A program made the translations under genes and the position numbers. The notes under the pieces are model-generated. The model saw only the letters and a program-made list of their open reading frames with translations, was not told where the DNA came from and did not search any database. Below, in pieces: positions 36,346 to 49,344 of a stretch of 64,000 nt of DNA (the first letter of the stretch is position 1; each line of letters begins with the position of its first letter). This DNA comes from a virus, in the IMG/VR virus record IMGVR_UViG_3300040751_002066, positions 1 through 64,000 of that record; one strand, written 5' to 3'.

Positions 36346-36621
36346 TTAGGCTGGGTTGCTGATTTCCACGGTGACTACCTCTCCCGGCGGGAGGGGCACC
36401 ACGCGAAATGTAGTGTCGTCGGCGCGAGACCATCCCCCTCCGGGGTAGGTGCGGGTAAGGTTCATAACCTCGTGATGAAACTTGGACTGGGTCCGCATCA
36501 CTAGGTCACCATGGTATGAACCCCCCGGGGCGTGGATCCGGGCAATCTGGAGCGGTGCCAGACTAGACATAGGGATGACTTTTGGCTTGGCGTTTTCTTT
36601 GGTTGTAATAACTTTAATCAT
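36346..36621 (-). CDS. Unknown small protein (91 aa)
   Basis: 91 residues, MIKVITTKENAKPKVIPMSS..., beta-rich with GGSYHGDLVMRT and FRVVPLPPGEVVTVEI. No family recognised. It lies between the hairpin at 36653-36686 and the DUF7178-like gene. Confidence 0.5.
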   Translation of the reverse strand: MIKVITTKENAKPKVIPMSSLAPLQIARIHAPGGSYHGDLVMRTQSKFHHEVMNLTRTYPGGGWSRADDTTFRVVPLPPGEVVTVEISNPA

Positions 36622-36652
36622 AATGGTTGTACTGTTTGGTTGTTGGTGGGGC

Positions 36653-36686
36653 GCCCCGCATACTAGTGTCGACCAGTATGCGGGGC
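36653..36686. repeat. Intercistronic hairpin, CATACT family (site 1)
   Basis: Outer stem GCCCCGC with GCGGGGC, inner CATACT with AGTATG, apex AGTGTCGACC. It is in the gap between the 36706 stop and the ATG at 36621. Confidence 0.85.
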
Positions 36687-36705
36687 GGGTTGGATTAGGT
36701 GGGGG

Positions 36706-37623
36706 CTACGCAGAGATGCCGAGGTCTCCGAGGATACTTTGGGAAACGGTTCCCACCGCTGCCTTGGCAGTGGCCTCAAGATCACGACGGTGGTCAGTGT
36801 CTCCGCGCACCACGTCAAGGTCCGCGTTGGCGATAGGCTCGAGGGCAGCAATAGCTTCGTCGAATCGCTCCGACTCGATCCAGTTATACTCCTTGGCCAC
36901 CTCGAGTCGGGACCGGAGCTTCTCGAACCGGCTACGACGCACCCGGCAGTCGGAGCCGAGCACTCCGAGGATCCCTTGGTCCGTGTCACCCGCACCGGTG
37001 ACGATGGCCAACAGCTCACGAAGCAGGTTCTCTTGTGCGTCTTGAAGGATGTGATTACGGGACTCTTCGACTTGGGCCCGGACCTTGGCCGCGACTTCCT
37101 CACTCACCCCTGCGAGTAGGATGTCCCCGGAGGTGGGGTCTGGGGTGTAGTCCAGCTTGTGGGTGAACTTGGCCGCCGCCACTTCCGCGGAAGGGAACTC
37201 GATGTCTTCACAGGCACTCGCCAGTTTCTTCTGGGACGCTGCGACAAGCGCCGGGTATTGCCGGCGAAGCTCGCCACGCAAGCGTTCGAGCTGGTCGTCG
37301 GCGTCGTCAAAGATCTCGTTCACTTCAGTCAAGCGGTCGGCTCGGACGAGGATGCCCCCGGTACTGAGCTTGAGTCCCAGCTTGTTGAGGTTGGCGAGAG
37401 TCTGTGCAAACAGCGAGAGCATCTGCCCGATGGGAGTGCCCTTGGATTCGAACAGGCGGGCCACGGTGCGGAGCGCCTTCGGGTCGGCTCCGGTACGTTG
37501 GCAGTTCTCATTGGTGATACGCTTGTGGGTCACGGTGAGTCCGGTTCGAGTGGTCGAGTAGTGGACCAGAAGGTTACCGGTGACAGAGACAGGAGTAGAG
37601 GTAGTAGTAGTAGGAGTATTCAT
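36706..37623 (-). CDS. DUF3150-like partner of the AAA+/VWA pair
   Basis: 305 residues. After a Thr-rich N-terminus come a strand GNLLVHYSTTRTG, KRITNENCQRTGADPKALR, GGILVRADRL and a long helical region with LRGELRRQYPALV, then a C-terminal helical part. The pattern (a basic strand, K-R-I, a helical coiled region ending in an R..YP motif) recalls DUF3150, found beside CobS-like AAA+ and CobT-like VWA genes in phages and integrative elements. The start at 37623 follows a long CA-rich leader; the frame upstream simply translates that leader as QQPTTNNQQPTTN, so it is excluded. Confidence 0.5.
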   Translation of the reverse strand: MNTPTTTTSTPVSVTGNLLVHYSTTRTGLTVTHKRITNENCQRTGADPKALRTVARLFESKGTPIGQMLSLFAQTLANLNKLGLKLSTGGILVRADRLTEVNEIFDDADDQLERLRGELRRQYPALVAASQKKLASACEDIEFPSAEVAAAKFTHKLDYTPDPTSGDILLAGVSEEVAAKVRAQVEESRNHILQDAQENLLRELLAIVTGAGDTDQGILGVLGSDCRVRRSRFEKLRSRLEVAKEYNWIESERFDEAIAALEPIANADLDVVRGDTDHRRDLEATAKAAVGTVSQSILGDLGISA

Positions 37624-37682
37624 AGTAATAATATTTTTGTTGGTTGTTGGTTGTTGGTTGTTGGTTGTTGGTTGTTGGGTTG
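37624..37682 (-). promoter_or_regulatory. CA-rich untranslated leader
   Basis: In mRNA sense, four to five CCAACAA units followed by AAAATATTATTACT and the ATG at 37623. There are few G residues and no Shine-Dalgarno. It is the clearest example of the leader type used in this block. Confidence 0.7.
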
Positions 37683-37683
37683 G

Positions 37684-37717
37684 GCCCCGCATACTAGTGG
37701 CGACCAGTATGCGGGGC
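37684..37717. repeat. Intercistronic hairpin, CATACT family (site 2)
   Basis: Stem GCCCCGC with GCGGGGC around CATACT...AGTATG, apex AGTGGCGACC. It lies directly before the CA-rich leader of the DUF3150-like gene. Confidence 0.85.
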
Positions 37718-37724
37718 AGTTGGA

Positions 37725-38417
37725 CTAGTGGTCAGTGTCTTCAGGGTAGTCGAACAGGTAGTTGCTTGGGTACTCCGTTTCGGGGCAGCACTCGGTTCCG
37801 TAGTTGGGGAACTTGACCCCCACCTCGGAACCCCACTCTTCCCACACGTCTCCTACCCACACCCACTCTCCGGTCGGGGATTTCTCATGACCGTCGAATA
37901 CCGCCGTGAAGTGGGCCTCGCCCCTGAAGGACAGACACCCGGGGTACCGAGGCGGGGGGTCTCCCCGGTACACTGTGTCGAGGGCCTCCATTAGTTGAGG
38001 GAGCGTAACCCCAAGGACCCTTGCCTTCCCCGCAAGGAACTCATTGACTGGAGGGTCGGGCCGGGTGGGCTGCGAAGCGGAGGCGTCCACCCCCTCAAGG
38101 TCCCACTCATGCCTGACTTCCTTCACCTTGTTGGGACTTACCAGTACCCACACGAGGGAACCAGTAGGGTAGGGTCCCCGGAAGGGGTCGCACACCCCAA
38201 TGGGGGTGGCCTTGTGCCCCGCGTTGCGCTCTCGGTATGGTTGTTTAGACACCCGGTTGAAGTTTCCTTGGGGGTTGATGTACACCTCGTCCCCGGCACT
38301 CAAGGGGGCCGCCGCGTAACCGGAGAGGATGGCTACGTGGATGGCGTCCTTAACACCCGGGGCTACGGGCGTGGTTCCGAGGGTGTTCTTCTTGTTAATC
38401 TGTGATGTGGTACTCAT
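37725..38417 (-). CDS. Conserved phage protein of unknown function (230 aa)
   Basis: 230 residues. PLSAGDEVYINPQGN, then IGVCDPFRGPYPTGSLVWVLVSP and VRHEW form a small beta barrel-like region seen in many phage proteins of unknown role. The C-terminal part is acidic with Trp-rich VWVGDVWEEWGSE. Its leader (CCAACCAAACCAACTG) is CA-rich and contains the stop of the upstream gene. Confidence 0.6.
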   Translation of the reverse strand: MSTTSQINKKNTLGTTPVAPGVKDAIHVAILSGYAAAPLSAGDEVYINPQGNFNRVSKQPYRERNAGHKATPIGVCDPFRGPYPTGSLVWVLVSPNKVKEVRHEWDLEGVDASASQPTRPDPPVNEFLAGKARVLGVTLPQLMEALDTVYRGDPPPRYPGCLSFRGEAHFTAVFDGHEKSPTGEWVWVGDVWEEWGSEVGVKFPNYGTECCPETEYPSNYLFDYPEDTDH

Positions 38418-38420
38418 AAT

Positions 38421-38618
38421 TTATACAGTTGGTTTGGTTGGTCCGTCCATTGAGGCTGGACGGTTCGCCTTTCGGGTGGGGATTAGTAACTCGTCGCGTA
38501 ACTCTTGGACGTTCTGTTCCAAAAGTACCAGTCGAGTGATCGCTTTGTTGAGCATCTGCTGAGTCTCGATGAGTCTCCTCTTCAGTGTTTCTTTTGAGAC
38601 CATGGCTTGGGCTAACAT
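38421..38618 (-). CDS. Small coiled-coil protein (65 aa)
   Basis: 65 residues: TLKRRLIETQQMLNKAITRL and VLLEQNVQELRDEL form one amphipathic coiled coil. Two starts are possible, ATG at 38618 (overlapping the upstream gene by 7 bases) or the sixth codon, MVSKET. It may oligomerise; function unknown. Confidence 0.55.
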   Translation of the reverse strand: MLAQAMVSKETLKRRLIETQQMLNKAITRLVLLEQNVQELRDELLIPTRKANRPASMDGPTKPTV

Positions 38619-39151
38619 GGTATGGGTTCGAGTTCGAGGATGTATTCCGCATCCTTGTCCCCCGGGGTGATGCGGGAGACGGCAGCAACGGTGGCGAGTT
38701 GGGGGTCTGTCACTATCTGAATGCCGTAGCCAATGTATGGGCCCCCATCCGGGTCAATGAAGGACAGGTCTCCGTCCTCCTCCTCCCCCCACCGGCAACT
38801 TAGGGCCCCGACAAGAGACAGCTTGGCGTAGTGGGACCCGTCCTTCCGACGGTACACCTCGATGGGCCACCGCTTGTTGTACCGGGAGCGCAAGGCCCCC
38901 CTCCGTGTGCAGGTCGTCGGCCCGTTGTCTGGCTCAAGGTGCTCCTCGAGCCAGTCAAGTAGCTCGTCGCTGTCTGCGGTCTCGGTGTCAACCTTGGCGT
39001 CCCATCCGTGTGCCGTGTCGGTGTATCGGATGAGGGTCATGTCGTTGTTTTGCGTGCCCCTCTCGACGGCGAGGAGCAGCCCCTCCCGTTGGAAGGTTAC
39101 GCTGTCGGCGGGAGTTATTTCGTGGATTTCTCGTAGTTCTTTTAGGTTCAT
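38612..39151 (-). CDS. Unknown protein (179 aa)
   Basis: 179 residues, alpha/beta, with an acidic first half (DTETADSDELLDWLEEHLEPD) and a central basic strand region (RWPIEVYRRKDGSHYAKL). Ends in TAG. No family recognised. The ATG at 39151 lies behind AACAACCAACAACCAAC, one of the purest CA-rich leaders. Confidence 0.55.
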   Translation of the reverse strand: MNLKELREIHEITPADSVTFQREGLLLAVERGTQNNDMTLIRYTDTAHGWDAKVDTETADSDELLDWLEEHLEPDNGPTTCTRRGALRSRYNKRWPIEVYRRKDGSHYAKLSLVGALSCRWGEEEDGDLSFIDPDGGPYIGYGIQIVTDPQLATVAAVSRITPGDKDAEYILELEPIPC

Positions 39152-39154
39152 TTC

Positions 39155-39589
39155 TTAGTTGGTTGTTGGTTGTTGGTTGTTACTAGTCTTGACCAGTATG
39201 TAGGGGACGTCGTATCGGACCCACATGAATGCCCACTTGGCGTCGTGTATCGGTGAGGGGTCTGACTCCCCCACGACGGGTGCGGTGCGGAAGTACCCCG
39301 ATACGTGTGGGTTGTACCATACCTGATGGGACCACCCGTGCCGGTATAGTTCGTGGTGTTCCGGAGGGAAGGCGAGCGGGAAGGAGGCCACGTCCCCCAT
39401 GTCCGGGGCGGTCACGAAGGCGTGGACATTCTTGCGTCCCTCCCTGATAACCCGCTGCCTTCCCCCCTCCTGAACCACGAACCGTGGACCATGGATCAGG
39501 ATACAGGGAGTGTGGAACAGGACCCGGCCGCCTTGGCGCACGGAGAATAGTTTCTTGTGCAGGTTGAAGTAAACTTCTACTCGGCTCAT
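39155..39589 (-). CDS. Conserved phage protein, leader-encoded C-terminus (144 aa)
   Basis: 144 residues. The start MSRVEVYFNLHKKLFSVRQG and the later RKNVHAFVTAP match a widespread phage protein family of unknown function. The last residues TSNNQQPTTN are a direct translation of the CA-rich leader of the next gene, and the inner hairpin motif (ACTAGTC...GACCAGTATG, 39182-39202) lies in its final codons. Thus the ORF has run into the intercistronic module. Confidence 0.65.
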   Translation of the reverse strand: MSRVEVYFNLHKKLFSVRQGGRVLFHTPCILIHGPRFVVQEGGRQRVIREGRKNVHAFVTAPDMGDVASFPLAFPPEHHELYRHGWSHQVWYNPHVSGYFRTAPVVGESDPSPIHDAKWAFMWVRYDVPYILVKTSNNQQPTTN

Positions 39590-39783
39590 GGCTCCCCTAA
39601 CCTTTCCACTAGGATCTTCAGTGCCTCGTCCCGGTTGGGCGCCTCGAAAGGCGGGACCACTCGCAGCACAAAGGGGTTGTCTTGCACGTCGTAGGTGTAG
39701 TCCTTCGGATCATTAAAGTACCGCTTGAGGATGGCCTTGCCACTGCTGTGCCAGTAGCCCCACCATTTAATTGGTTCACTCAT
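39586..39783 (-). CDS. Conserved small phage protein (65 aa)
   Basis: 65 residues. IKWWGYWHSSGKAILKRYFN followed by DYTYDVQDNPFVLRVV and a helical end resemble short phage proteins usually next to the family at 39155-39589. Function unknown. It overlaps both neighbours by 4-8 bases. Confidence 0.6.
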   Translation of the reverse strand: MSEPIKWWGYWHSSGKAILKRYFNDPKDYTYDVQDNPFVLRVVPPFEAPNRDEALKILVERLGEP

Positions 39784-40039
39784 GGCTACTCACCCTTTCC
39801 CGCACTTCCTTTAGGATGGACCGGGCCTGCGAGGGGCCCACTGACTGTAACGCCCGGGGGCTTTCGTAGCTCACCCCAAGGAACCGTCCCTCGCTCCGCT
39901 CGAACGCGTCCCCAACCTTGGGAGTGTTGAGGTGGTTAGTGAGTATCTCATGCCCCTCCCCTTGGGGGGAGAGGAGAAGGACCCCCCGAAGCCCGAAGCT
40001 GTTCGTGTTCTCAGATATACTTATAACGTGGAATTTCAT
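39776..40039 (-). CDS. Unknown small protein (87 aa)
   Basis: 87 residues, MKFHVISISENTNSFGLRGV..., with a short beta start and KVGDAFERSEGRFLGVSY. The ATG at 40039 follows a CA-rich leader of about 50 bases (AACCAACAACTAACAACC). The frame extending further upstream translates only the leader and was excluded. Confidence 0.55.
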   Translation of the reverse strand: MKFHVISISENTNSFGLRGVLLLSPQGEGHEILTNHLNTPKVGDAFERSEGRFLGVSYESPRALQSVGPSQARSILKEVRERVSSHE

Positions 40040-40092
40040 AATAGTTGTTTGGTTGTTAGTTGTTGGTTGTCGGTTGTTGGTTGGGTTGGTTG

Positions 40093-41220
40093 TTACGCAC
40101 CTACTAGTTCTGCCCACATCTCAGGTCGGCGTTCAGGCACGTTGATGCCCCGTCTCTGGGCAGTGGACAACCCGTAAGCTGCGACCTCGGGGTTGAGTCT
40201 CGCCATGCCATCCATCGCCCAGTCCAGCTTACCGGAGTGAAGTGCGGCACCGACGTCGCTTATGCCGCGGGTGGCATATAGCAAGGCGCCACTCGCCAGC
40301 ATGAACTGCTGGTCGCTACGCTTGGGGACCGTGAACCCTTCCGGGTCTTTCTTCATGGCCTCGAAAGCGGGCCGGTCCTCGAGGACTGCCAAGAAGGCGA
40401 ACAAGGCGTTGCTCGCCGCGTCCCCGACCCACCCTTGGACGTTCACCCGCGCCGCCTCTCTGGTGCAGCGTCCCTCTCGTTGGTGGATGAGAGTCTTCAT
40501 GACCTCCTCCCATGCACGTGGGGAGGGCTGGGCGTTGGGGACGAGAGGGTCAAAATCGGACGGGTCTCCGAGGAAGTGATCCTTGTGGGCCTCCGAAGCG
40601 GATACGCTGTTGCCATACGCAATGAACGCAGGGACGAAGGTCTCCGCATACTCGGGGACTGAGTCGGCCCACCGCCACCAGTTGGCCGCGTCGGGAATCA
40701 AGGTAACAAGGCTCGCCCGTCGGCACTCCGGGATGGAGTACCGACCAACCGCCGCCCCGTCGCTGCGTCTGTTGGTTGTGAGTCCACAAACCACGTTGGG
40801 TCCGATGATGTGAGACCCGAGGTATCGGTGCTTACCGGCGGGCGGGGACAGTACCCCGTGGAACGCGGCCCGGACTTGTGGGTCCCAGTTTCCCCACTCG
40901 TCGAGCACCCAATACACGTGGCTGTCTCCGACCCTGTCCATGGTGGGGATTCCCTCGGGCTGGGAGAACACCATGTTGAGTATCTTGTCTTCCCACTTGG
41001 GGAGTCCGAGTCCAGTTACTTCGACCGGACCTTTGCCTGCAAAGTTGGACAGGGTAACCGTGTCAAACAAGGGACGTGCGGCATTGGCCATGATGGTTGT
41101 CTTACCTACCCCGCTGGGTCCGAAGACCATGAGGGTAGATTGGGTGGCCCGTTGCAGGGCTACTTGTTCCTCCAACTGGGGAGGGCTGATCGGATTTTCG
41201 TTTTTCATTTCTTTTTTCAT
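40093..41220 (-). CDS. MoxR/CobS-like AAA+ ATPase
   Basis: 375 residues. Walker A GPSGVGKTT at 34-42, Walker B VYWVLDEWGNWD near 103, then GVLSPPAGKHRYLG and a sensor-like VCGLTTNRRSDG near 145. The short N-terminus, NFAGKGPVEVTGL pore-loop region and helical C-terminal lid fit MoxR/CbbQ/CobS-type AAA+ chaperones, which act as rings with VWA proteins to remodel a substrate. The VWA gene (34308-35765) and a DUF3150-like gene lie in the same operon. An alternative start is four codons downstream. Confidence 0.8.
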   Translation of the reverse strand: MKKEMKNENPISPPQLEEQVALQRATQSTLMVFGPSGVGKTTIMANAARPLFDTVTLSNFAGKGPVEVTGLGLPKWEDKILNMVFSQPEGIPTMDRVGDSHVYWVLDEWGNWDPQVRAAFHGVLSPPAGKHRYLGSHIIGPNVVCGLTTNRRSDGAAVGRYSIPECRRASLVTLIPDAANWWRWADSVPEYAETFVPAFIAYGNSVSASEAHKDHFLGDPSDFDPLVPNAQPSPRAWEEVMKTLIHQREGRCTREAARVNVQGWVGDAASNALFAFLAVLEDRPAFEAMKKDPEGFTVPKRSDQQFMLASGALLYATRGISDVGAALHSGKLDWAMDGMARLNPEVAAYGLSTAQRRGINVPERRPEMWAELVGA

Positions 41221-41236
41221 TTCTTTGTTGGGTTAC

Positions 41237-41752
41237 TTAGTCACGGATACGGAGGGACTTCACGTCTACTCCCGCAAGGTCGGCCACCTCTTGCAAGGTG
41301 AGGGTGGTTTCCTTGGCGGGTTCGGGGATGTGAGTACCGTGGTGATACCACTTCTTGGAGCCGTCGGACCACTCAATGGCGGGACCGTCTTCACGGTGGA
41401 ACCGGCCGTTGAGGTACCACGACTTGGAGCCGTCGGACCACTCAATGGCGGGACCGTCTTCACGGTGGCGCTGGCCGTGGTGATACCACTCCTTGATGCC
41501 GTTGGGTTCCTCAATGGCGGGACCGTCCTCACGGTGGAGCTTGCCGTGGTGATACCATGACTGGGCGCCGTCGGCATACTCAACGGCGGGACCGTTCTCA
41601 CGGTGGAGCTGGCCGTTGATGTACCACTCCTTGGTGCCGTTGGAATACTCAATGGCGGGACCGTCTTCACGGTGGTAGGTGGTAAGCTTACGGTTGGAAT
41701 AGTAACGGCGGGTGCCGTTGGGGTCTACGTAGATGTATTGTTCTTTGATCAT
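41237..41752 (-). CDS. HREDGPA-repeat (MORN-like) protein, copy 1
   Basis: 171 residues. Five 23-residue units of the form HREDGPAIE-x(2-3)-G-x-K-x-WY-x2-G follow an N-terminal MIKEQYIYVDPNGTRRYYSN, ending LTLQEVADLAGVDVKSLRIRD, a short helical (HTH-like) tail. The units recall MORN/YwqK-type beta-hairpin repeats common in large phages; binding partner unknown. The start at 41752 follows a CA-rich leader. A paralogue lies directly upstream. Confidence 0.75.
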   Translation of the reverse strand: MIKEQYIYVDPNGTRRYYSNRKLTTYHREDGPAIEYSNGTKEWYINGQLHRENGPAVEYADGAQSWYHHGKLHREDGPAIEEPNGIKEWYHHGQRHREDGPAIEWSDGSKSWYLNGRFHREDGPAIEWSDGSKKWYHHGTHIPEPAKETTLTLQEVADLAGVDVKSLRIRD

Positions 41753-41780
41753 ATTCTTTGTTGGTTGTTGGTTGGATGGG

Positions 41781-42296
41781 TTAGTCACGGATACGGAGGG
41801 ACTTCACGTCTACTCCCGCAAGGTCGGCCACCTCTTGCAAGGTGAGGGTGGTCTCCTTGGTGGGTTCGGGGATGTGAGTACCTTGGTGATACCACTCCTT
41901 GATGCCGTCGGGTTCCTCAATGGCGGGACCGTCCTCACGGTGGCGCTGGCCGTTGAGCCACCACTCCTTGATGCCGTTGGCATACTCAATGGCGGGACCG
42001 TTCTCACGGTGGCGCTGGCCGTGGTGATACCACTTCTTGGTGCCGTTGGCATACTCACTGGCGGGACCGTCCTCACGGTGGCGCTGGCCGTGGTGATACC
42101 ACTTCTTGGTGCCGTTGGGATACTCAACGGCGGGACCGTCCTCACGGTGGAGCTTGCCGTGGTGATACCACTTCTTGGTGCCGTTGGGATACTCAACGGC
42201 GGGACCGTCCTCACGGTGGAAGGTGGTAAGCTCACGGTTGGAATAGTAATGGCGGGTGCCGTTGGAGTAGACGTGGATGTATTGTTCTTTGATCAT
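41781..42296 (-). CDS. HREDGPA-repeat (MORN-like) protein, copy 2
   Basis: 171 residues, the same length and layout as the gene at 41237-41752, with five repeats (two tandem YPNGTKKWYHHG units among them). The C-terminal 21 residues and the first residues are identical. The two genes and their leaders form a tandem duplication with a period of 544 bases; the repeats differ between copies, suggesting unit shuffling. Confidence 0.75.
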   Translation of the reverse strand: MIKEQYIHVYSNGTRHYYSNRELTTFHREDGPAVEYPNGTKKWYHHGKLHREDGPAVEYPNGTKKWYHHGQRHREDGPASEYANGTKKWYHHGQRHRENGPAIEYANGIKEWWLNGQRHREDGPAIEEPDGIKEWYHQGTHIPEPTKETTLTLQEVADLAGVDVKSLRIRD

Positions 42297-42325
42297 ATTC
42301 TTTGTTGGTTGTTGGTTGGATGGGT

Positions 42326-42359
42326 GCCCCACATACTGGTTGCTACTAGTATGCAGGAC
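42326..42359. repeat. Intercistronic hairpin, CATACT family (site 3, degenerate)
   Basis: CATACTGGTTGCTACTAGTATG core is intact, but the outer stem (GCCCCA against GCAGGAC) is partly broken. It lies between the 42368 stop and the MORN-like gene leader. Confidence 0.7.
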
Positions 42360-42367
42360 AAGTCGGT

Positions 42368-42799
42368 CTACTCAAATGTAACAGTAAAGTTAGGCGCCTT
42401 GCTAGCGAGGTACCCCTCGATAGCCCCTTCCAAAGCGTCGTCGCTGATGTGTTCAGCGAGGTCGCCGAGGTCGATGTAGTCGGCAACCTTAATCGGGGAT
42501 ACGTGGGTGGCAACTCCAGACAGGCTCAGTTCCTCGGACAATTCCTCGAGGTCCACCCCCGCCGCCACCTTGTGGGGAGGGACGAAGGTCGCGACAACGG
42601 CGGGGTCCAGTTCGTCGGCCACCTGATCGGCAGTCGGAAGGTGGCGTGCAACCATGTCGGCAAGGTTCGCCGCTGCCTTGGTTGCCTCGTCTCTCCGGAT
42701 GTCCTCTAAGTAGTCGAGGAGTAGCCAGTCAAGGACCATGTACCAGATGATGCGGGCTTGAAGGAGGGGGTAGCTGAGTAGTAGGGTAATGTATTTCAT
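42368..42799 (-). CDS. Membrane-anchored helical protein (143 aa)
   Basis: 143 residues. The N-terminal MKYITLLLSYPLLQARIIWY is hydrophobic and probably anchors the protein in the membrane or acts as an uncleaved signal. The rest is acidic and helical, with two similar segments (HKVAAGVDLEELSEEL and IKVADYIDLGDLAEHI). Unknown family. The start at 42799 follows a CA-rich leader; the upstream frame translates that leader. Confidence 0.6.
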   Translation of the reverse strand: MKYITLLLSYPLLQARIIWYMVLDWLLLDYLEDIRRDEATKAAANLADMVARHLPTADQVADELDPAVVATFVPPHKVAAGVDLEELSEELSLSGVATHVSPIKVADYIDLGDLAEHISDDALEGAIEGYLASKAPNFTVTFE

Positions 42800-42888
42800 A
42801 ATAGTTTTGTTGGTCGTTGGTTGTTGGTTGGTTGGGGAGCACCCTGAACCATGGGGTCGGACCATGGTTCAGGGTTCTGGGTTCAGGG

Positions 42889-43155
42889 TTAGATACCAAG
42901 ATCGTCGTCTTCCTTCTTCTTCGCCTCCGCTGCCTCTTCCTCTTCCTCAATCAAAGCGTCGAAGCGTTCGTTGAGGGTGTCCCGAAGGGAACGAAGAGCT
43001 GCCAACGTCTCGCTGCGTGTAGCCTTAAGGGTAGGCTTACTCCCGGGGACTTGGGTGGTCACCTTCTCATTGAGGAGGGTGGAGGTTTGGTAAGTATCAA
43101 CCTTGTGCGTGATGGCGAGGTCGAGGGTAATGGTAGTTTCGGATGGTGTTTTCAT
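42889..43155 (-). CDS. Small coiled-coil protein with acidic tail (88 aa)
   Basis: 88 residues. A strand-like, Thr-rich N-terminus is followed by a helix (TLAALRSLRDTLNERFDAL-like) and an EEEEEAAEAKKKEDDD tail. Function unknown. Its leader is an ACAACT/CCACTA repeat rather than CCAACAA, another low-G, CA-rich type. Confidence 0.6.
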   Translation of the reverse strand: MKTPSETTITLDLAITHKVDTYQTSTLLNEKVTTQVPGSKPTLKATRSETLAALRSLRDTLNERFDALIEEEEEAAEAKKKEDDDLGI

Positions 43156-43187
43156 AGTAACAGTGGTAGTGGTAGTTGTAGTTGTAG

Positions 43188-43526
43188 TTAGAGAACCAGC
43201 TCATGGGTGTACGAACTGGTGCGATTGAAGGTACGTGCGAGTGTCCACGAGTAGGGCAGGCCCTTACAAGTTAGGATAACGAGCACACGGTCGTGGAAGT
43301 AGGATGTTGTAACCTCTTGCACTTCATAAAAAGTGGAATCGTATCGGAAGCGAACCCACTTGAGGTTGGTCTGAAGCCATTGCAACTGGGCAGTCGGACC
43401 GGCGAGGCGGGCCTCCTGTTTGCGGATGGCTGCGAGGTGGCGGGAGGCCCCGACCTCACGGACATCTTTCGATGCGCCGTGGGGCAGGACCTCGGGGTGC
43501 CTCCACTCAGGAAGAGGCAGTGACAT
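43188..43526 (-). CDS. Unknown protein (112 aa)
   Basis: 112 residues; a helical half (SRHLAAIRKQEARL) and a strand-rich end (VRFRYDSTFYEVQEVTTSYF, VLVILTC). No family recognised. It overlaps the upstream gene by 20 bases. Confidence 0.5.
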   Translation of the reverse strand: MSLPLPEWRHPEVLPHGASKDVREVGASRHLAAIRKQEARLAGPTAQLQWLQTNLKWVRFRYDSTFYEVQEVTTSYFHDRVLVILTCKGLPYSWTLARTFNRTSSYTHELVL

Positions 43527-43773
43527 AAGAGGGGAGCACTACGGATGACCGCACACCCACCTCCGATGGGTGAACCTTCTGATGCTCGACCAAGGGAAGC
43601 ACCCTCGACACTGGGACCCGATTGGGTGGGACGAATGGACGAACAATCAGGAGGTTACCCTCCCGACCCAACACCACGACACGGCGTCCCCTCAGCATAA
43701 GGGTCTCGCCGACGTAAATGGCCCAGCCTCTCGTACTAATGCCGACTAGTTTGGTATTGGTTCTACGCTTCAT
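43507..43773 (-). CDS. Small basic beta-rich protein (88 aa)
   Basis: 88 residues, basic and strand-rich: GRRVVVLGREGNLLIVRPF suggests a small beta barrel (SH3- or Kow-like), which might bind nucleic acid. No named family. It overlaps both neighbours. Confidence 0.5.
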   Translation of the reverse strand: MKRRTNTKLVGISTRGWAIYVGETLMLRGRRVVVLGREGNLLIVRPFVPPNRVPVSRVLPLVEHQKVHPSEVGVRSSVVLPSYVTASS

Positions 43774-44098
43774 AATATCCGGGGGTGGAGGGTTGGTCTG
43801 GCTGGGGGTAGTGTCCCCAGTAACTCTCGACTACCTTGTCGAGGGCGTCGGAGTCAATGGTGTTCCACCTCTCGGAGGTGAGGGTATCGAACTCGGCACC
43901 ATACTTCTCACAGGTCCTTCTCAGGAACTCCCGCTTGAACTTGTGGGCGAGGTCGATGTACTTGGTGCAACGGCTACGTGCCGAGTGGAGGATGACGTGG
44001 TCCTTACCTACACTGACCGAACACCGGCGCTTGAAGGGTTTAGGGGCCGGACCTTTCGGCTTCTCGTTGTCTGCTTTAATTTGAGGTAGTGCTTTCAT
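43763..44098 (-). CDS. Unknown protein with basic N-terminus (111 aa)
   Basis: 111 residues. KPKGPAPKPFKRRCSVSVGK is basic and probably flexible; HKFKREFLRRTCEKYGAEFD and DSDALDKVVESYWGHYP form helices. No family recognised. Overlaps the next gene by 11 bases. Confidence 0.55.
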   Translation of the reverse strand: MKALPQIKADNEKPKGPAPKPFKRRCSVSVGKDHVILHSARSRCTKYIDLAHKFKREFLRRTCEKYGAEFDTLTSERWNTIDSDALDKVVESYWGHYPQPDQPSTPGYYEA

Positions 44099-44167
44099 AG
44101 CTATTTGTTTTGGTTAAATGCACCGCTCTTGAAGAGGTGGCGGTGTGCCTCACCTGCTTGGTTGGGG

Positions 44168-44605
44168 TTACTTCAGGGATTTCTTTACCCCAACGGCGGC
44201 GCGATTGATCTCTGCAAGGGAGCTGAAGGATATGGTCTGGCACCCCACGTGGATGCCTTCCTTATCTACCGTTGCGGTGTAATCCCCGACACCGGGGACC
44301 TCAATACTAAGCTCCTCTTCCACAGGGGCGAGGAGGCTTATGATTTGTGCGAGGTCTTCCTGCCAGTCCCACAGATTAGTGAGGCCCGCCCCGTGAGCAT
44401 ATCCCCCAACTACTTGGAGGGCGTCCGGTCTTACCTTCACCACGGTGTACCTCGGGTATGACTTGTCCACCCATTCTTCCGGGGTGGCATCATACACTGT
44501 GATCGAGCCGGGTGTGTAGATCGCATACCCCATAGTTGAGAGTAGGGTCAGGCATTGGATGGCGTCTTGATGGCTGGAGAATTGGATGTTAATTACTTTA
44601 GACAT
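44168..44605 (-). CDS. Unknown protein (145 aa)
   Basis: 145 residues, MSKVINIQFSSHQDAIQCLT..., alpha/beta with YAIYTPGSITVYDA and GVGDYTATVDKEGIHVGC. The ATG at 44605 follows a CA-rich leader and hairpin (44639-44672). No named family. Confidence 0.55.
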   Translation of the reverse strand: MSKVINIQFSSHQDAIQCLTLLSTMGYAIYTPGSITVYDATPEEWVDKSYPRYTVVKVRPDALQVVGGYAHGAGLTNLWDWQEDLAQIISLLAPVEEELSIEVPGVGDYTATVDKEGIHVGCQTISFSSLAEINRAAVGVKKSLK

Positions 44606-44638
44606 ACTATTTTGTTGGTTGTTGGTTGTTGGTTGGGT

Positions 44639-44672
44639 GCCCCACATACTGGTCTTCACTAGTATGTGGGGC
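44639..44672. repeat. Intercistronic hairpin, CATACT family (site 4)
   Basis: Outer stem GCCCCAC with GTGGGGC, inner CATACT with AGTATG, apex GGTCTTCACT. Compared with sites 1-2, a G-C pair is replaced by A-T on both arms, a compensatory change. Confidence 0.85.
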
Positions 44673-44680
44673 AGGTTAGC

Positions 44681-45196
44681 CTAGAGGGCAGCTTGCAGCT
44701 CCTTTTGGATCGTTGACGCCAGCGCCTCCACACATTCCAGACCGGCCGCGCCCACCATGATGAGGTCCTTGGCACGTTCCACCTCCTTGGAGATGCGGTC
44801 TTCAGTCGCTTGGAGGCGGGCCTCCAACTTAGCCTGCACTTTCCTGAGTGCCTTCTTCTCCTTGGAGAGACGAGTGATCTCCTCTTGGTGGTCGTTGGTG
44901 ATGAGGTTAAGCACCGGAATATTAGCTACGTAACCACCCAAGTTGGAACGATTCTCTTCGATGGTCGCAGCAATAACCTTCCGGACCGCCGCCGCCGGTG
45001 CGGGACGGGGGTTGGCATAGGGATCCTCAAGGAGCGAGTTGATTCGATCCCGGATCCAATCGATCCGCACCCGGCCATCAGTGCGGGCAGCGTCGCAGAG
45101 GTCATGGTGCGCGTCGCGGGCAAGAGAGTCGAGGCGTTTCACGATGTGCTTCTTCTCCGAGGCTGTCATTTTTGGGGTGTTATTTGTAGTCTTCAT
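44681..45196 (-). CDS. Coiled-coil protein (171 aa)
   Basis: 171 residues, almost entirely helical: EEITRLSKEKKALRKVQAKL and EARLQATEDRISKEVERAKD (about 105-145) form a strong coiled coil. The N-terminus is basic. Function unknown; possibly a structural or oligomerising partner within the accessory block. Confidence 0.6.
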   Translation of the reverse strand: MKTTNNTPKMTASEKKHIVKRLDSLARDAHHDLCDAARTDGRVRIDWIRDRINSLLEDPYANPRPAPAAAVRKVIAATIEENRSNLGGYVANIPVLNLITNDHQEEITRLSKEKKALRKVQAKLEARLQATEDRISKEVERAKDLIMVGAAGLECVEALASTIQKELQAAL

Positions 45197-45236
45197 ACTA
45201 TTTTGTTGGTTGTTGGTTGTTGGTTGTTGGTTGGGT

Positions 45237-45270
45237 GCCCCACATACTGGTCTTCACTAGTATGTGGGGC
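45237..45270. repeat. Intercistronic hairpin, CATACT family (site 5)
   Basis: Identical to site 4 over 34 bases (GCCCCAC/GTGGGGC stem, GGTCTTCACT apex), 598 bases away, so one copy probably arose from the other together with the CA-rich leader. Confidence 0.85.
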
Positions 45271-45282
45271 GATTGGTTGTGG

Positions 45283-45567
45283 TTAGCCACGCATCATGGC
45301 GGCGGCGAGACCGGAAACGTCACCCGTCTTGAGCATGCGTTCACTGTCCTCCATGGATGCGGCTTGCTTAAGGCCACGGGCCCGACGGTCTACCGATTTC
45401 TTCGCGACCGTCGGGTTCGCTACGACTTCAATCACCCCGTCTTCACGGGAGGTCAAGTCTTTGTTGATAATAAGAATCACTGGAGCCTTCGCGCCACGCG
45501 CAAGAGTCAGAGTGAATCCTTTGTATTGGGCGGTTGCCCCCATCTTGTTTTCTGTTTTGGTTTTCAT
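45283..45567 (-). CDS. Unknown small protein (94 aa)
   Basis: 94 residues: YKGFTLTLARGAKAPVILII is strand-rich; the C-terminal part is helical (KQAASMEDSERMLK). No family recognised. The gene is followed by hairpin site 5 in mRNA order. Confidence 0.55.
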   Translation of the reverse strand: MKTKTENKMGATAQYKGFTLTLARGAKAPVILIINKDLTSREDGVIEVVANPTVAKKSVDRRARGLKQAASMEDSERMLKTGDVSGLAAAMMRG

Positions 45568-45645
45568 GTTACAGGCCGGAAGTCTATCCGGTGGGGTATG
45601 TCCCGCGCAGCCGAAGCCACACGGGGCACACAGTCACCGTGCATA

Positions 45646-45674
45646 CTTAGTCACGGATACAGAGGGACTTGTTG
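45646..45674 (-). pseudogene. Fossil of the HREDGPA-repeat gene 3' end
   Basis: ACTTAGTCACGGATACAGAG then GGACTT matches, with one change, the 3' end and stop of both MORN-like genes (SLRIRD-stop). It lies between two unrelated genes and has no coding body, so it is a relic of a third copy or a recombination scar. Confidence 0.6.
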
Positions 45675-45682
45675 GGGATTAA

Positions 45683-45970
45683 CTAGCGAGCCGTTCCGAA
45701 GAACCGGATCAAGCGGCGAGCCGCCTCCCGATCTGATGTCTCGAACACCTCCCGCTCGGAGTGGCGACCCACCTTGGTGACAAGGCGGACCCCCTCTGGA
45801 TCCACGTCAACAGTGGCGCACCGTTCATGGGTGCGCAACTCGACGTGTCCGTTGTCATCATTCTGGAAGGCCAGCACCCCGGATGGCACCACCATCATGA
45901 GGGTGGCGACACGAGTGGCTGCGGCACGTGACGGAACTCCCGTCACACTTTGGTTGTTTTTTGTATTCAT
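45683..45970 (-). CDS. Unknown small protein (95 aa)
   Basis: 95 residues: strand-rich (VATLMMVVPSGVLAFQND, HERCATVDVDPEGVRLVTKV) with a basic helical end (SDREAARRLIRFFG). No family recognised. Its leader has GTAACAACTAACAACCCAGC, CA-rich, behind hairpin site 6. Confidence 0.55.
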   Translation of the reverse strand: MNTKNNQSVTGVPSRAAATRVATLMMVVPSGVLAFQNDDNGHVELRTHERCATVDVDPEGVRLVTKVGRHSEREVFETSDREAARRLIRFFGTAR

Positions 45971-46010
45971 TGTTTTGTTGGCTGGGTTGTTAGTTGTTAC
46001 CCAGTGCTAT

Positions 46011-46056
46011 GTCACTTGTGATACATACTAGTTGATACTAGTAGGTCACAAGTGAC
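46011..46056. repeat. Intercistronic hairpin, CATACT family (site 6)
   Basis: Outer stem GTCACTTGTGA with TCACAAGTGAC (11 perfect pairs, unrelated to other sites), inner CATACTAGTTGATACTAGTAG. The conserved core in a wholly different perfect stem is strong evidence that both pairing and core are selected. Confidence 0.85.
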
Positions 46057-46102
46057 ACGCCACTGAGAGTATAAGAACTCAATCTTATACCTGTGGTTGG
46101 GG

Positions 46103-46177
46103 TTAAATGATAGATGCGGTTAGCACCACGAGTATGGCGAGGATGGCCCACGACGCTAGCTCGAATGCGGTTCTCAT
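46103..46177 (-). CDS. Tiny membrane peptide (24 aa)
   Basis: 24 residues, MRTAFELASWAILAILVVLT then ASII: one hydrophobic segment. Its ATG overlaps the stop of the preceding tiny ORF as ATGA (46174-46177). A longer frame beginning at 46288 is possible but would overlap two other coding regions. Function unknown. Confidence 0.4.
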   Translation of the reverse strand: MRTAFELASWAILAILVVLTASII

Positions 46178-46266
46178 GGAGCGGGCCAAGTGTGGTTCAC
46201 CCACTGGGCGAGTTTGCCTAGCCCAATCACAAGGGCCACGAAGGCCACGAGATAAGCCAATCTCAC
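46174..46266 (-). CDS. Tiny membrane peptide, GTG start (30 aa)
   Basis: 30 residues, MRLAYLVAFVALVIGLGKLA followed by QWVNHTWPAP: one hydrophobic segment with a basic/aromatic end. GTG start overlaps the stop of the gene at 46263-46457 as GTGA, and its own stop overlaps the next ATG. The two tiny ORFs together fill the gap without slack. Confidence 0.42.
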   Translation of the reverse strand: MRLAYLVAFVALVIGLGKLAQWVNHTWPAP

Positions 46267-46457
46267 TGGTCCCTCCCTTCTTGCTCACGTCGGATCCGAA
46301 AGGTGGTGACGTAGTTGCGGAGGATCTCCCGCACCAAGGGCATGCGCCTGTCCCGCCACCAATGCCGGAACGCCCACTTCAAGTCGGCGTCTATCGCGCC
46401 ACGATGGTTAGTAAACCCCGGAGGCCGGGGCTTTATCTTTTGCTTATTTGTTTTCAT
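46263..46457 (-). CDS. Small basic protein (64 aa)
   Basis: 64 residues with a basic N-terminus (MKTNKQKIKPRPPGF) and helices rich in Arg and Trp (WAFRHWWRDRRMPLVREILR). Possible nucleic-acid binding; no named family. Overlaps neighbours by 4 bases on both sides. Confidence 0.55.
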   Translation of the reverse strand: MKTNKQKIKPRPPGFTNHRGAIDADLKWAFRHWWRDRRMPLVREILRNYVTTFRIRREQEGRDQ

Positions 46458-46834
46458 ATCAATTTGGATACTTGTTCCACTTGTTCAAGAGGCCAAGACT
46501 TGTCTCCGTAGTAGAGGTTTTCGAGGTCGTGGGTTTCGAGATACGCCTCGAGCAAGGCGCGGAACATGGGGCCCACATTGTCCATGAACGGAGCGGGTCG
46601 GATCGCCAAGAAGTCATACGTGACTCCTCGGAACTTGAAGCAGTCGTTGGCGACGCGGAGGATGGGCTCGACTATAGTGTGGCCCTCATTGGTCACGCCG
46701 GTCACTACTTCAATGGAACTCCCCGAGTAAAGCGTGGACCAGAACGTCTCACACCAATGGGCGCGGAGCTTGGTTCCGTTGCCGGGTGAGGTGCCGCATG
46801 AGCGTAGCTCTATCTCTATGATCTTTGGATACAT
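46454..46834 (-). CDS. Unknown protein (126 aa)
   Basis: 126 residues, alpha/beta: MYPKIIEIELRSCGTSPGNG, a central strand VTYDFLAIRPAPF and a helical acidic end (LLEAYLETHDLENLYYGD). No family recognised. A degenerate hairpin core (ATACTGG...ACTAGTAAG, 46839-46859) precedes it. Confidence 0.55.
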   Translation of the reverse strand: MYPKIIEIELRSCGTSPGNGTKLRAHWCETFWSTLYSGSSIEVVTGVTNEGHTIVEPILRVANDCFKFRGVTYDFLAIRPAPFMDNVGPMFRALLEAYLETHDLENLYYGDKSWPLEQVEQVSKLI

Positions 46835-46864
46835 GATGATACTGGTTGGGACTAGTAAGTGGGC

Positions 46865-47341
46865 CTAGTAAGTGTCACGGCGGGAGGCCCCGCGAACATT
46901 GACACGAGGGTAGGATTTAGGTTCCTTGGCGAGGCGCAAATCCGCGAGGACGTAGCACAAGGAGGTCAGGCCGTTGCGGGTGGTCCGGACGGACCGGTGC
47001 GGATACTTGTCGCTAAAGTGCGACGCTAGGCAACAGTGGAGCACCCATTCAAGGGACCGGAGCAGGTAGGTCCGGATCACCCCCTCGACATCCGTCCCTC
47101 TTTGATCCTCCTCGTCTACAAGGATGCGACTCATGCGGGCCCCCAACTCGCGGGTGCACACCCCCTCGGGAAGGCCGTTGGGGAAATGAAGGGTCACCTC
47201 TAGGGGAACCTCGACATCCACGGGGTCTCTCTTCACAGGGGCGGGGGGAACCCCGCGATTGATGAAGCGCCCTTGGGCGTTGCTGGCTTTGCCCTTATTC
47301 ATTCGGATAAGGGCCTTTCGTTTTTGTTTGTGCTCTTTCAT
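46865..47341 (-). CDS. Unknown basic-N-terminal protein (158 aa)
   Basis: 158 residues from the ATG at 47341 (MKEHKQKRKALIRMNKGKAS). The first 35 residues are basic, the rest is mixed alpha/beta with a Cys-containing helix WVLHCCLASHFSDKY. Longer starts up to 47491 translate the simple-sequence repeats and a hairpin and were excluded. Confidence 0.5.
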   Translation of the reverse strand: MKEHKQKRKALIRMNKGKASNAQGRFINRGVPPAPVKRDPVDVEVPLEVTLHFPNGLPEGVCTRELGARMSRILVDEEDQRGTDVEGVIRTYLLRSLEWVLHCCLASHFSDKYPHRSVRTTRNGLTSLCYVLADLRLAKEPKSYPRVNVRGASRRDTY

Positions 47342-47420
47342 AGCGGACACCCTCCCCCGTCCGGAGACGTGAGAGGGTGGGTCGCTATGCCCTGATCCAT
47401 GATCCCCGATCCCCGATCCG

Positions 47421-47440
47421 ATACTAGTAGCCCCTAGTAT
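47421..47440. repeat. Intercistronic hairpin core, CATACT family (site 7)
   Basis: ATACTAGTAGCCCCTAGTAT: inner arms intact (ATACTAG with CTAGTAT), no outer G+C stem. It is flanked by GATCCCC repeats on one side and the 10-base array on the other. Confidence 0.6.
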
Positions 47441-47450
47441 GGAGTCAGGG

Positions 47451-47541
47451 TGCAGTGCCATACAGTGCCATACAGTGCCATACAGTGCCATACAGTGCCA
47501 TACAGTGCCATACAGGATACAGGATACAGGATACAGGATAC
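47451..47541. repeat. Tandem simple-sequence arrays
   Basis: About six 10-base units CAGTGCCATA (47452-47514) are followed without a break by four 7-base units CAGGATA (to 47541). They occupy the gap between two minus-strand genes. There is no spacer diversity, so this is not a CRISPR array. Confidence 0.9.
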
Positions 47542-47542
47542 G

Positions 47543-47911
47543 CTATACACTGGCAATCTCAATGGCGGGACCGTCCTCACGGTGGGGCCGTCCGATTGAG
47601 AACCATTTCGAATGCCGCTCGCATACTGTTTCGAATGCGACGGTCCTCTCAAGAGTGTTCGCCCCTATGGTCCTCGCGTATCTTTTAACGCAAACGGTGG
47701 CATCTTGGAGGTCGCCGAAGTGATCCGTATAATAGTCCATTTGCCTGATGAGGTCGTCGATACGACCGAGGGATGCGCAAAGCACAGGGGGGAGGAAAGC
47801 TGCGCAAACTCGCAGGAATTCCTCCCTTGTGGGAGTAATACTGCGCAACTGGATTGCGAGGGCCGCCTTAAACGTGGAGCTTTCGCCCTCAAGGTATTGA
47901 TGTAGTGTCAT
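47543..47911 (-). CDS. Helical protein with one fused HREDGPA unit (122 aa)
   Basis: 122 residues. The body is helical with several Cys (LRVCAAFLPPVLCASLGRID). The last 20 residues, ending RPHREDGPAIEIASV, are one HREDGPA repeat, and the DNA (47560-47590, GGCGGGACCGTCCTCACGGT) is nearly identical to repeats in the MORN-like genes. This is a clear recombination joint. The leader is CCAAAAC-repeat rich, low in G. Confidence 0.6.
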   Translation of the reverse strand: MTLHQYLEGESSTFKAALAIQLRSITPTREEFLRVCAAFLPPVLCASLGRIDDLIRQMDYYTDHFGDLQDATVCVKRYARTIGANTLERTVAFETVCERHSKWFSIGRPHREDGPAIEIASV

Positions 47912-47957
47912 AGTTTTTGTTTTGGTTTTGGTTCTTGTTTTGGTTTTGGGTAAAGTA

Positions 47958-47993
47958 AAGGGACCATACTAGAGCTTACTAGTATGGTCCCTT
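47958..47993. repeat. Intercistronic hairpin, CATACT family (site 8)
   Basis: Outer stem AAGGGACC with GGTCCCTT, inner CATACTAG with CTAGTATG, 6-base apex AGCTTA: a perfect 16-pair stem. The outer arms share nothing with sites 1-6. Confidence 0.88.
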
Positions 47994-48008: not shown

Positions 48009-48563
48009 TTAGGCGAAGACCTTGGCGAGGAGGAGTGCGGCCGCCTTGGCCTCGGCCCATTCTTTTGAATGGGTGTTCTGCCCGTCCAACTTGGCGGTCA
48101 GGGATTCAATCTGCTTGGCGATTGAATCGGGATTTAATGCCCTAGCCTTCCCGCCTTTCGCCTTGCCCTTTCCGGAAGTCTGAATGTTCCAAAGATCCTC
48201 CGACTTTTTGAGGCCCATCCATTTTCCAGAGAAACTAGACAAAGACTTGGCGTCTTTGGTTTCCTTGGGGAACAAGAGCTTGGCAGCCCCCCGCATCCCT
48301 TGGTGAAACAAGTCCCATTCGAAGTTGGCACGGTAGGCCCAAAGGCCAATTTGCTTCCATTGAGGCTTGCCCCATACTTTACTAGTCCCGACTAGTAACT
48401 CCGCAAGGAAGGACGTGGCCGCATCCTGCTCGGCCATGCCCGTTTCAGCCAGTTGGTTCCAGCGGGCACAGAGGGCAACGACTAGTTTATCTTCGGACTT
48501 GTCGAATGCTTCGAGGGCGTTAAGGATGATCGCGGATACTTCGATTTTGTTTTTAGTTGTCAT
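48009..48563 (-). CDS. First gene of the accessory block, unknown function (184 aa)
   Basis: 184 residues, helical, with a Lys/Gly/Ala-rich linker (SGKGKAKGGKARAL) near 130-145 and a C-terminal coiled coil. The N-terminal half has ALCARWNQLAETGMAEQDAA and a Trp-rich WGKPQWKQIGLWAYRANFEW. No family recognised. Being first after the 800-base regulatory region, it may be made earliest and most; this is inference. Confidence 0.6.
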   Translation of the reverse strand: MTTKNKIEVSAIILNALEAFDKSEDKLVVALCARWNQLAETGMAEQDAATSFLAELLVGTSKVWGKPQWKQIGLWAYRANFEWDLFHQGMRGAAKLLFPKETKDAKSLSSFSGKWMGLKKSEDLWNIQTSGKGKAKGGKARALNPDSIAKQIESLTAKLDGQNTHSKEWAEAKAAALLLAKVFA

Positions 48564-49016
48564 TTTCTTTTCTTGGTTATGGGAAAGCGGTGTGCTCTCC
48601 CTTCACTAGGATAGGTGAACAGACCCCCATACTAGTCGGGACCAGTTTGCGCGGCGGACCCTGATCCCCGACCCCTGATCCCTGAGCCTTGGTTCCGGAT
48701 GCAGGGCCCTGAGCCTCCGACCCGGCTGCTGGGGGGTGGGTTCGTTTTTCTCGGTACCGGAATCATAGTATATTATGGTGCACACAATTTGTTGAAAATA
48801 CTTTTGTTGCACCGGAGGGGGTTGTGGAACGGACTGAGAATCAGTGACTTACAAAAGTGTGACATTTTGTCGCACCTGTTTCGCAATATATTGCACAAGT
48901 TGCACCGGGCCGGCGCAAGATTCAGAGCACGGGGCTCGCAAGCCTTGTACCTACAACGATCCTCGGTGCAATATTTGTTGCACGCGGGTGCAAAATCAGG
49001 GATCAGGGCGCAGGGT
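48564..49016. promoter_or_regulatory. Non-coding control region: iteron-like TTGCAC sites, palindrome, A+T-rich patch
   Basis: No gene is visible. It holds a degenerate hairpin core near 48628-48648, GATCCC/CCCTGA-type simple repeats (48655-48700), an A+T-rich patch (CATAGTATATTATGG, 48764-48778), six TTGCAC/GTGCAA sites (48807, 48891, 48900, 48966, 48978, 48988), the palindrome GCAATATATTGC (48883-48894) and the operator-like GTGTGACATTTTGTCGCAC (48857-48875). On the minus strand TTCAAC-N18-TATACT is a possible promoter for the 48563 block. An origin or a divergent control region fits best. Confidence 0.6.
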
Positions 49017-49344
49017 AAAAATGGGCTTACTGAGTATCAATGAGTTAGCGGTTCGTTTTGCCGCAAATAGGGGCGCTAGCCCGCATAGGTACAAGGAAAC
49101 GCAACGTGAGGGATCCCCCACTCCACGGACCCCCACTCCACAAACCCCTTAAGGAAGAGTTTTCTGTATTACTGAGAGAGTAGGATCTCTTCTGATAATA
49201 CCTTTATGGAGGGTTTGTGGAGTGGGGGTCCGTGGAGTGGGGGTTCCCGCGGACCACGTTTCCTTGTACCTATGCGGGCTGGAGCCTCTATTTGCGGCAA
49301 AACGAACCGCTAACTCACTGATACTCAGTAAACCCCTTTTTGCG
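49017..49344. repeat. Palindromic element, copy 2 (330 bases)
   Basis: Two arms of about 130 bases (49017-49148 and 49208-49344), roughly 85-90 percent inverse-complementary by eye, around a 59-base loop. The loop and the inner arm (CCCACTCCACAAACCC) match copy 1 at 16485-16597 on the opposite strand. No long gene is plausible here. It separates the divergent minus and plus blocks. Confidence 0.88.

Follow-up and report, generated by a model that had tools for sequence, protein, structure and literature searches.

Genes in a minus-strand block of this virus genome are preceded by repeated inverted repeats, most of which form hairpins: a virus-specific core occupies the apex, and the longer outer arms differ in sequence between copies while remaining paired. 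These repeats look like portable gene-control cassettes. In the reading that we favor, at slightly below even odds (roughly 0.45), they are start-associated inverted-repeat cassettes in which the hairpin would act at the mRNA level, with its apex read by a lineage-specific factor for the downstream gene. Such a factor might provide the following gene with its own 5' end or ribosome-entry region, through processing, protection or control of initiation, and the repeated cassettes would, as a by-product, serve as homologous joints for gene exchange.

The window, that is, the whole stretch of 64,000 nt analyzed, covers positions 1-64000 of a 68,929-bp IMG/VR virus record (57.8% G+C). The virus encodes a family A DNA polymerase (polA), a large terminase, a helicase and a giant 4311-aa ORF that was not assigned to any family in comparisons with PDB sequences, PHROGs and Pfam. 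Among bacterial genomes, most of the polA relatives come from Verrucomicrobiota, with isolates such as Pelagicoccus among them, and therefore the host is probably a member of that phylum. Phage records yielded neither a DNA match nor a terminase match, and single-protein scans found no close relatives. Two tRNAs are the sole sequences in the window that reach Rfam gathering scores; the hairpins match no curated RNA family in that database. As judged by eye, Shine-Dalgarno sequences are generally absent before starts in this virus.

The core, ACTRGT-N4-ACYAGT, is present in 10 exact copies in the 68,929 bp, against 0.013 expected (mean of 300 dinucleotide shuffles). The spacer is always 4 nt; the remaining lengths between 0 and 20 gave no copy. 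One-off versions add two copies (47423 and 47968) and a weaker one at 43735; the pattern CATACT-N0-14-AGTATG has 6 exact matches, against 0.01 expected. All 12 cores (10 exact and two one-off) are confined to 36.6-48.7 kb, in agreement with the preliminary description, which had restricted the sites to the minus block, and a core lies within a few bases of each of the eight positions listed there. The claim that the sites occur only in gaps holds for 10 of the 12 cores, which fall entirely between genes in a block with 11.5% intergenic sequence (binomial tail 2e-8, with a gene model made partly by hand), but not for the two cores beyond that list, 48381 in the middle of a gene and 39182 overlapping an ORF end. 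The two sites described as weaker, near 46840 and 48630, both contain exact cores, the former without an outer stem and the latter with poor outer pairing (Table 1).

Table 1. Cores and gap hairpins of the block, with the leaders and ORFs that they precede.
Element	Extent	Strand	Core	Context
Hairpin	36652..36687	-	36662-36677, exact	Leader 36622-36651 to start of ORF 36346-36621
Hairpin	37684..37717	-	37693-37708, exact	(CCAACAA)n leader 37624-37683 to ORF 36706-37623
Hairpin	42326..42359	-	42335-42350, exact	Leader 42297-42325 to ORF 41781-42296; arm with three G.U pairs on the mRNA strand
Hairpin	44638..44673	-	44648-44663, exact	Leader 44606-44637 to ORF 44168-44605
Hairpin	45237..45270	-	45246-45261, exact	Leader 45197-45236 to ORF 44681-45196; near-identical to hairpin 44638..44673
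Hairpin	46002..46065	-	46027-46042, exact	Leader 45971-46001 to ORF 45683-45970; outer stem of GTCACTTGTGA type, unrelated to the others
Weaker hairpin	47391..47451	-	47423-47438, one-off	Upstream of ORF 46865-47341; fold z -2.3
Hairpin	47958..47993	-	47968-47983, one-off	Leader 47912-47957 to ORF 47543-47911; outer stem AAGGGACC, unrelated to the others
Core, poor outer pairing	48621..48656	-	48631-48646, exact	Divergent region, upstream of the block's first gene (ORF 48009-48563); fold z +0.3
Core only	39182..39197	-	39182-39197, exact	Overlaps 3' end of ORF 39155-39589; (CCAACAA)n leader directly after on mRNA
Core only	46841..46856	-	46841-46856, exact	30-nt gap, 6 nt upstream of start of ORF 46454-46834
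Core only, 8-bp perfect stem	48381..48396	-	48381-48396, exact	Inside ORF 48009-48563
Gap hairpin without core	42838..42878	-		CCCTGAACCATGG arms
Gap hairpin without core	44120..44148	-		GCACCGC/GCGGTGTGC; read by eye from the sequence

On the minus strand, a unit typically runs from stop codon through hairpin and leader to start codon. The hairpin mostly lies 7-18 nt past the preceding stop codon. The leader behind it spans about 30-60 nt, is mostly C/A-rich, often (CCAACAA)n, and lacks a Shine-Dalgarno sequence; the genes downstream are small and probably early. By a hand count, nine of the 12 block gaps of at least 60 nt contain the core and two more contain a different hairpin. The preliminary description did not bring out that the repeats precede genes, the first gene of the block included; a repeat likewise stands before the first gene in a relative, G024. 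Because a repeat stands even before the first gene, these elements are tied to the following gene rather than to the preceding stop. The suggestion that the hairpins are translation insulators carries little weight, since their C/A-rich composition alone leaves the leaders unstructured.

Position before each unit would also suit promoters, or terminator-plus-promoter units like the T4 PeSLs or ESAS, that give each small gene its own transcript. The gene-content junctions described below recall PeSLs as well (PMC4503421), and in Adephagia there is overlap between ESAS and predicted SigA promoters (PMC11373665). However, sigma-70-like sites are not enriched in the window's virus (7 versus 6.6) or in G024 (5 versus 8.1), although any promoter of an unusual kind in this host group would escape such a count. 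Terminator-like sites are not enriched either: just one G024 hairpin qualifies, and on the mRNA strand no U-tract (T-run) follows the core hairpins of the window's virus, which thus do not classify as intrinsic terminators. We consider this explanation distinctly unlikely. The 4311-aa ORF had suggested N4-type hairpin promoters served by a giant virion RNA polymerase, an idea that was rejected given that its product has no polymerase match among PDB sequences, PHROGs and Pfam. A T7-type RNA polymerase was not detected in nine records, in a weak search that also failed to detect its control.

Nine of the cores sit within longer hairpins with covarying outer arms; 39182, 46841 and 48381 have no outer stem. 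In RNA folding against dinucleotide shuffles, eight of these nine fuller sites fold better (z from -2.3 to -7.8), and the ninth, 48631, no better. On the mRNA strand, 24 cells are changed on both sides, compared with 11.3 in shuffled data, and the covariation score is 0.285 versus 0.138, a value reached in 0 of 500 shuffles. All register slides score worse, and the opposite strand scores slightly lower (0.244). The preliminary description had the outer stems of its eight sites differing yet staying paired. The covariation bears out the pairing, but a GCCCC-type arm is common to the related copies at 36652, 37684, 42326, 44638 and 45237, the last two of which are near-identical, so that the number of independent outer stems is about four rather than eight.

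Several relatives share the terminase, the helicase and the giant protein with this virus; relatives are 42-45% identical in the polA alignment, and terminase identity is 41% in G024 and 42% in G003. The core of the window's virus is absent from all 28 relative records, and DNA-pattern scans of IMG/VR for this core in other viruses returned only single chance-level matches without the layout. The same order, namely, stop or divergent region, hairpin, C/A-rich leader and start, recurs with other cores in two lineages. G024 and G030 contain 12 hairpins each with the core GGTATA-ACCRAC-TATACC, and the orientation of the ACCRAC loop relative to the genes is fixed at all sites of both genomes; G016 contains eight TTRGAAC-N5-GTTCYAA sites and a ninth with N4 spacing. 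Scanning the collection with the G024 family brought up G030, with its 12 sites, and G029, with 4, as close kin. Covariance models of the window's own sites and of the G024/G030 sites, searched against 879 kb, each matched only within their own lineage, which for the latter includes G029. The preliminary description would have been refuted by related phages that lack the sites in orthologous gaps or keep the core without the pairing: the relatives lack this core, and G024 and G030 keep both their own core and its pairing in the gaps that they share.

In a scan for repeated palindromes, these families came out on top in the window's virus, G024, G030 and G016, against 2-5 in shuffles; in the window's virus, a tandem-repeat gene scored nearly as high. 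Nothing rose clearly above shuffles in G003, G005, G010 and G015. Two other families, TTCCAA-N3-TTGGAA (L225, L087 and L097) and CTTGAC-N8-GTCAAG (G025), were set aside after a brief look in which the stop-hairpin-leader layout was not seen. As a separate observation, G018 carries a GCGCTC-N3 palindrome family at 0.3-2.9 kb, and G013 carries GC-rich families.

The arms of the G024/G030 hairpins covary as well, with a score of 0.190 versus 0.111 and no shuffle as high. In three column pairs the bases vary and pairing is nearly always preserved; double-change pairs are not more numerous than in shuffles. The earlier proposal that pairing is selected thus gains support from covariation in the window's virus and, independently, in this pair of genomes. 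One-sided arm changes, counted under a symmetric rule across all sites, yield 12 G.U and 10 A.C pairs on the mRNA strand, compared with 12 and 0 at the regularly paired sites. Two sites in each genome, both close to the first gene, contribute all 10 A.C pairs. The one at 6709/8272 pairs better in another register and accounts for the larger part of the 10, whereas the one at 6124/7686 is a true exception. With orthologues merged, the G.U bias amounts to about 8 events to 1 (one-sided p 0.02). The small size of this bias counts against the RNA cassette reading, and the bias could alternatively stem from a coding-strand C-to-T bias.

The arms argue for RNA action, through their covariation, the G.U bias and the oriented loop of G024, whereas the core in the window's virus and G016 argues for a strand-symmetric DNA site. 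In the window's virus, the one variable core pair, read on the mRNA strand, occurs as A-U in four copies, as G.U in four and as A.C in four, and never as G-C. Across this virus and G016, G.U and A.C are equally frequent at the R/Y pair and G-C is again absent (P 0.036 under independence, 21 pairs, 9 of them from G016). The centers of the palindromic half-sites, separated by the fixed N4 spacer, are 10 bp apart, and core-only copies exist. The core could, accordingly, be a double-stranded DNA operator through which a dimeric regulator controls many small units, as in dispersed-operator phages, the hairpin being secondary, and the core differences between lineages resemble those of operators with changing regulators. 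We regard this alternative as possible but doubtful: a plain operator does not need outer arms that covary without sequence conservation, nor does it account for the fixed loop orientation in G024 and G030, and a family search of the block found no DNA-binding regulator. The block's first gene was rejected as a shared regulator because it shows no sequence similarity between lineages and no family match; its protein in the window's virus gave no significant fold match, and the model of the G030 protein was poor.

Against RNA-level cassettes stand the three core-only sites of the window's virus, one of them in a gene, and the chance-level fold at 48631. A protein that reads the apex could reconcile RNA-like arms with a DNA-like core. 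Strict conservation of core and spacer next to variable arms makes it fair to infer that the core is recognized, as proposed earlier; no RNA-binding, processing or other binding factor was identified. A bolder version, which we rate as unlikely, is that most early cistrons of each lineage are licensed through an RNA hairpin "address" peculiar to that lineage, for which it has its own reading factor, and that genes, being bounded by the hairpin-leader joints, are exchanged as cassettes. Such exchange would parallel integron gene cassettes, in a tailed phage and without a dedicated recombinase.

Away from the small genes, G024 and G030 share 95-98% identity; several of the small genes differ between them. 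The ends of homology lie, in six cases out of six, within 5-79 nt of a core, with cassettes making up 27% of the region. This placement of gene-content junctions at cassettes is suggestive only, because whole-gene exchange places junctions in gaps anyway. Cassette gene shuffling was assessed in G024 and G030; the window's virus, which is without close kin, has a near-identical hairpin and leader before two unrelated genes (hairpins 44638 and 45237). Such copies, together with the gene turnover beside the repeats in G024/G030, would also be produced by selfish or mobile REP- or MITE-like repeats spreading from gap to gap and doing nothing for the virus. This possibility appears very improbable in view of the placement before starts, the conserved core with compensated arms and the occurrence, in three lineages, of independent families that share the layout, and junctions in gaps are partly expected with any whole-gene exchange. 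The preliminary description had missed the junctions at repeats in a relative.

Repeated inverted repeats before phage genes are already known, including ESAS (PMC3203893), the repeats of Cluster O (PMC4351075) and Clusters EF/EG (PMC7302621) and the PeSLs and the HGTV-1 motif (both as described in PMC4503421 and PMC3950731). The ESAS/SAS of Cluster K mycobacteriophages, the role of which is still unverified, are inverted repeats that lie immediately before some of the non-structural genes, with a linked start-proximal element and a consensus that differs between subclusters (PMC3203893, PMC11373665, PMC12699233). The cores described here are likewise mostly intergenic and precede gene starts, within a block made up of small genes. 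However, SAS is a Shine-Dalgarno-like 13-mer, whereas the start-proximal part here is a C/A-rich leader without such an element; the SigA promoters predicted at ESAS have no counterpart here by the sigma-70 consensus, although the host promoter type may differ; and the core here lies at the apex of a hairpin, inside covarying arms. The 18-bp repeats of Microbacterium Cluster EG (PMC7302621) and the 17-bp dyad repeats of Cluster O (PMC4351075) are, like those here, short-spacer palindromes, in 8 to more than 30 copies. The former are mostly 14-22 bp upstream of starts and are kept though the surrounding genes differ, and the latter have no strand orientation and are also frequent inside genes; the descriptions consulted mention no variable outer arms, and the sequences are unlike those here. 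The PeSLs of T4-like phages and the motif of the haloarchaeal virus HGTV-1 are stem-loop cassettes between early genes for which gene shuffling was proposed (PMC4503421, PMC3950731), comparable to the homology ends near cores in G024/G030. An early promoter forms part of the PeSLs, and the HGTV-1 motif has a TATA-like box, in contrast to the repeats here, in which no promoter part was detected by the sigma-70 consensus.

A literature search found no such repeats described for Verrucomicrobiota viruses, which does not show that no such description exists. In T7, the RNase III processing sites of the early genes are irregular intercistronic hairpins in the early mRNA. The hairpins here may be compared to these as intercistronic elements, differing from them in regularity, and any cleavage here is conjectural. 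The present system differs from those known in the turnover of cores between lineages within one layout, the covarying outer arms and the leaders free of Shine-Dalgarno sequences.

Actinobacteriophages, T4-like phages and a haloarchaeal virus had already provided examples of start-associated inverted repeats, several of them still unclear in function; the present analysis adds viruses linked, through their relatives, to Verrucomicrobiota, the genes of which lack Shine-Dalgarno leaders. This group of viruses offers different cores in one layout, compensatory arm changes and two near-identical genomes that differ in gene content at the elements, and therefore both RNA versus DNA action and cassette exchange are directly testable.

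Arrays of the heptamer TTGTTGG (CCAACAA on the mRNA) make up several of the leaders, the C/A-rich stretches between hairpin and start codon, and in the window these leaders vary in length and precede different genes. The duplication that gave rise to the tandem paralogues copied the leader along and left the hairpin out. In the gap at 47453-47541, a tandem repeat of CAGTGCCATA (6.3 copies) adjoins one of ATACAGG (4.6 copies).

Coordinates of genes, heptamer arrays and long inverted repeats
Feature	Location	Remarks
Paralogous gene pair, in tandem	window 41237-41752 and 41781-42296	69-nt internal repeats; weak DUF6745 matches
ORF, 4311 aa	window 18907-31842	HELAH motif, metallopeptidase-like
TTGTTGG array	window 37637-37678	
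TTGTTGG array	window 39158-39181	
TTGTTGG array	window 40044-40094	
TTGTTGG array	window 44612-44635	
TTGTTGG array	window 45203-45233	
Very long inverted repeat	window 49017-49341	divergent region; arms 131 nt, 89% complementary, spacing 63 nt
Long palindrome	G024, L148:7311-7385	within the divergent region of G024
Long palindrome	G003, L139:16418-16513	

Other palindromes occur in further sequences. The virus record G025 (L153-L156) contains seven promoter- or operator-like sites resembling CTTGAC-N8-GTCAAG, some close to gene boundaries, and TTCCAA-N3-TTGGAA palindromes, part of them in gaps, recur in the Pontiellaceae contig L225 and in sequence L087. The very long inverted repeat in the divergent region of the window is a candidate replication origin.

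No family assignment was obtained for the 4311-aa ORF; distant homologues of similar size were found in the related viruses G024, G003 and G018, and its product is possibly an ejected virion protein.

Relatives of the family A DNA polymerase gene are carried by Verrucomicrobiota genomes (L210, L212-L216, L218-L226), isolates among them, and these sequence matches suggest that proviruses of this virus group reside in Verrucomicrobiota.
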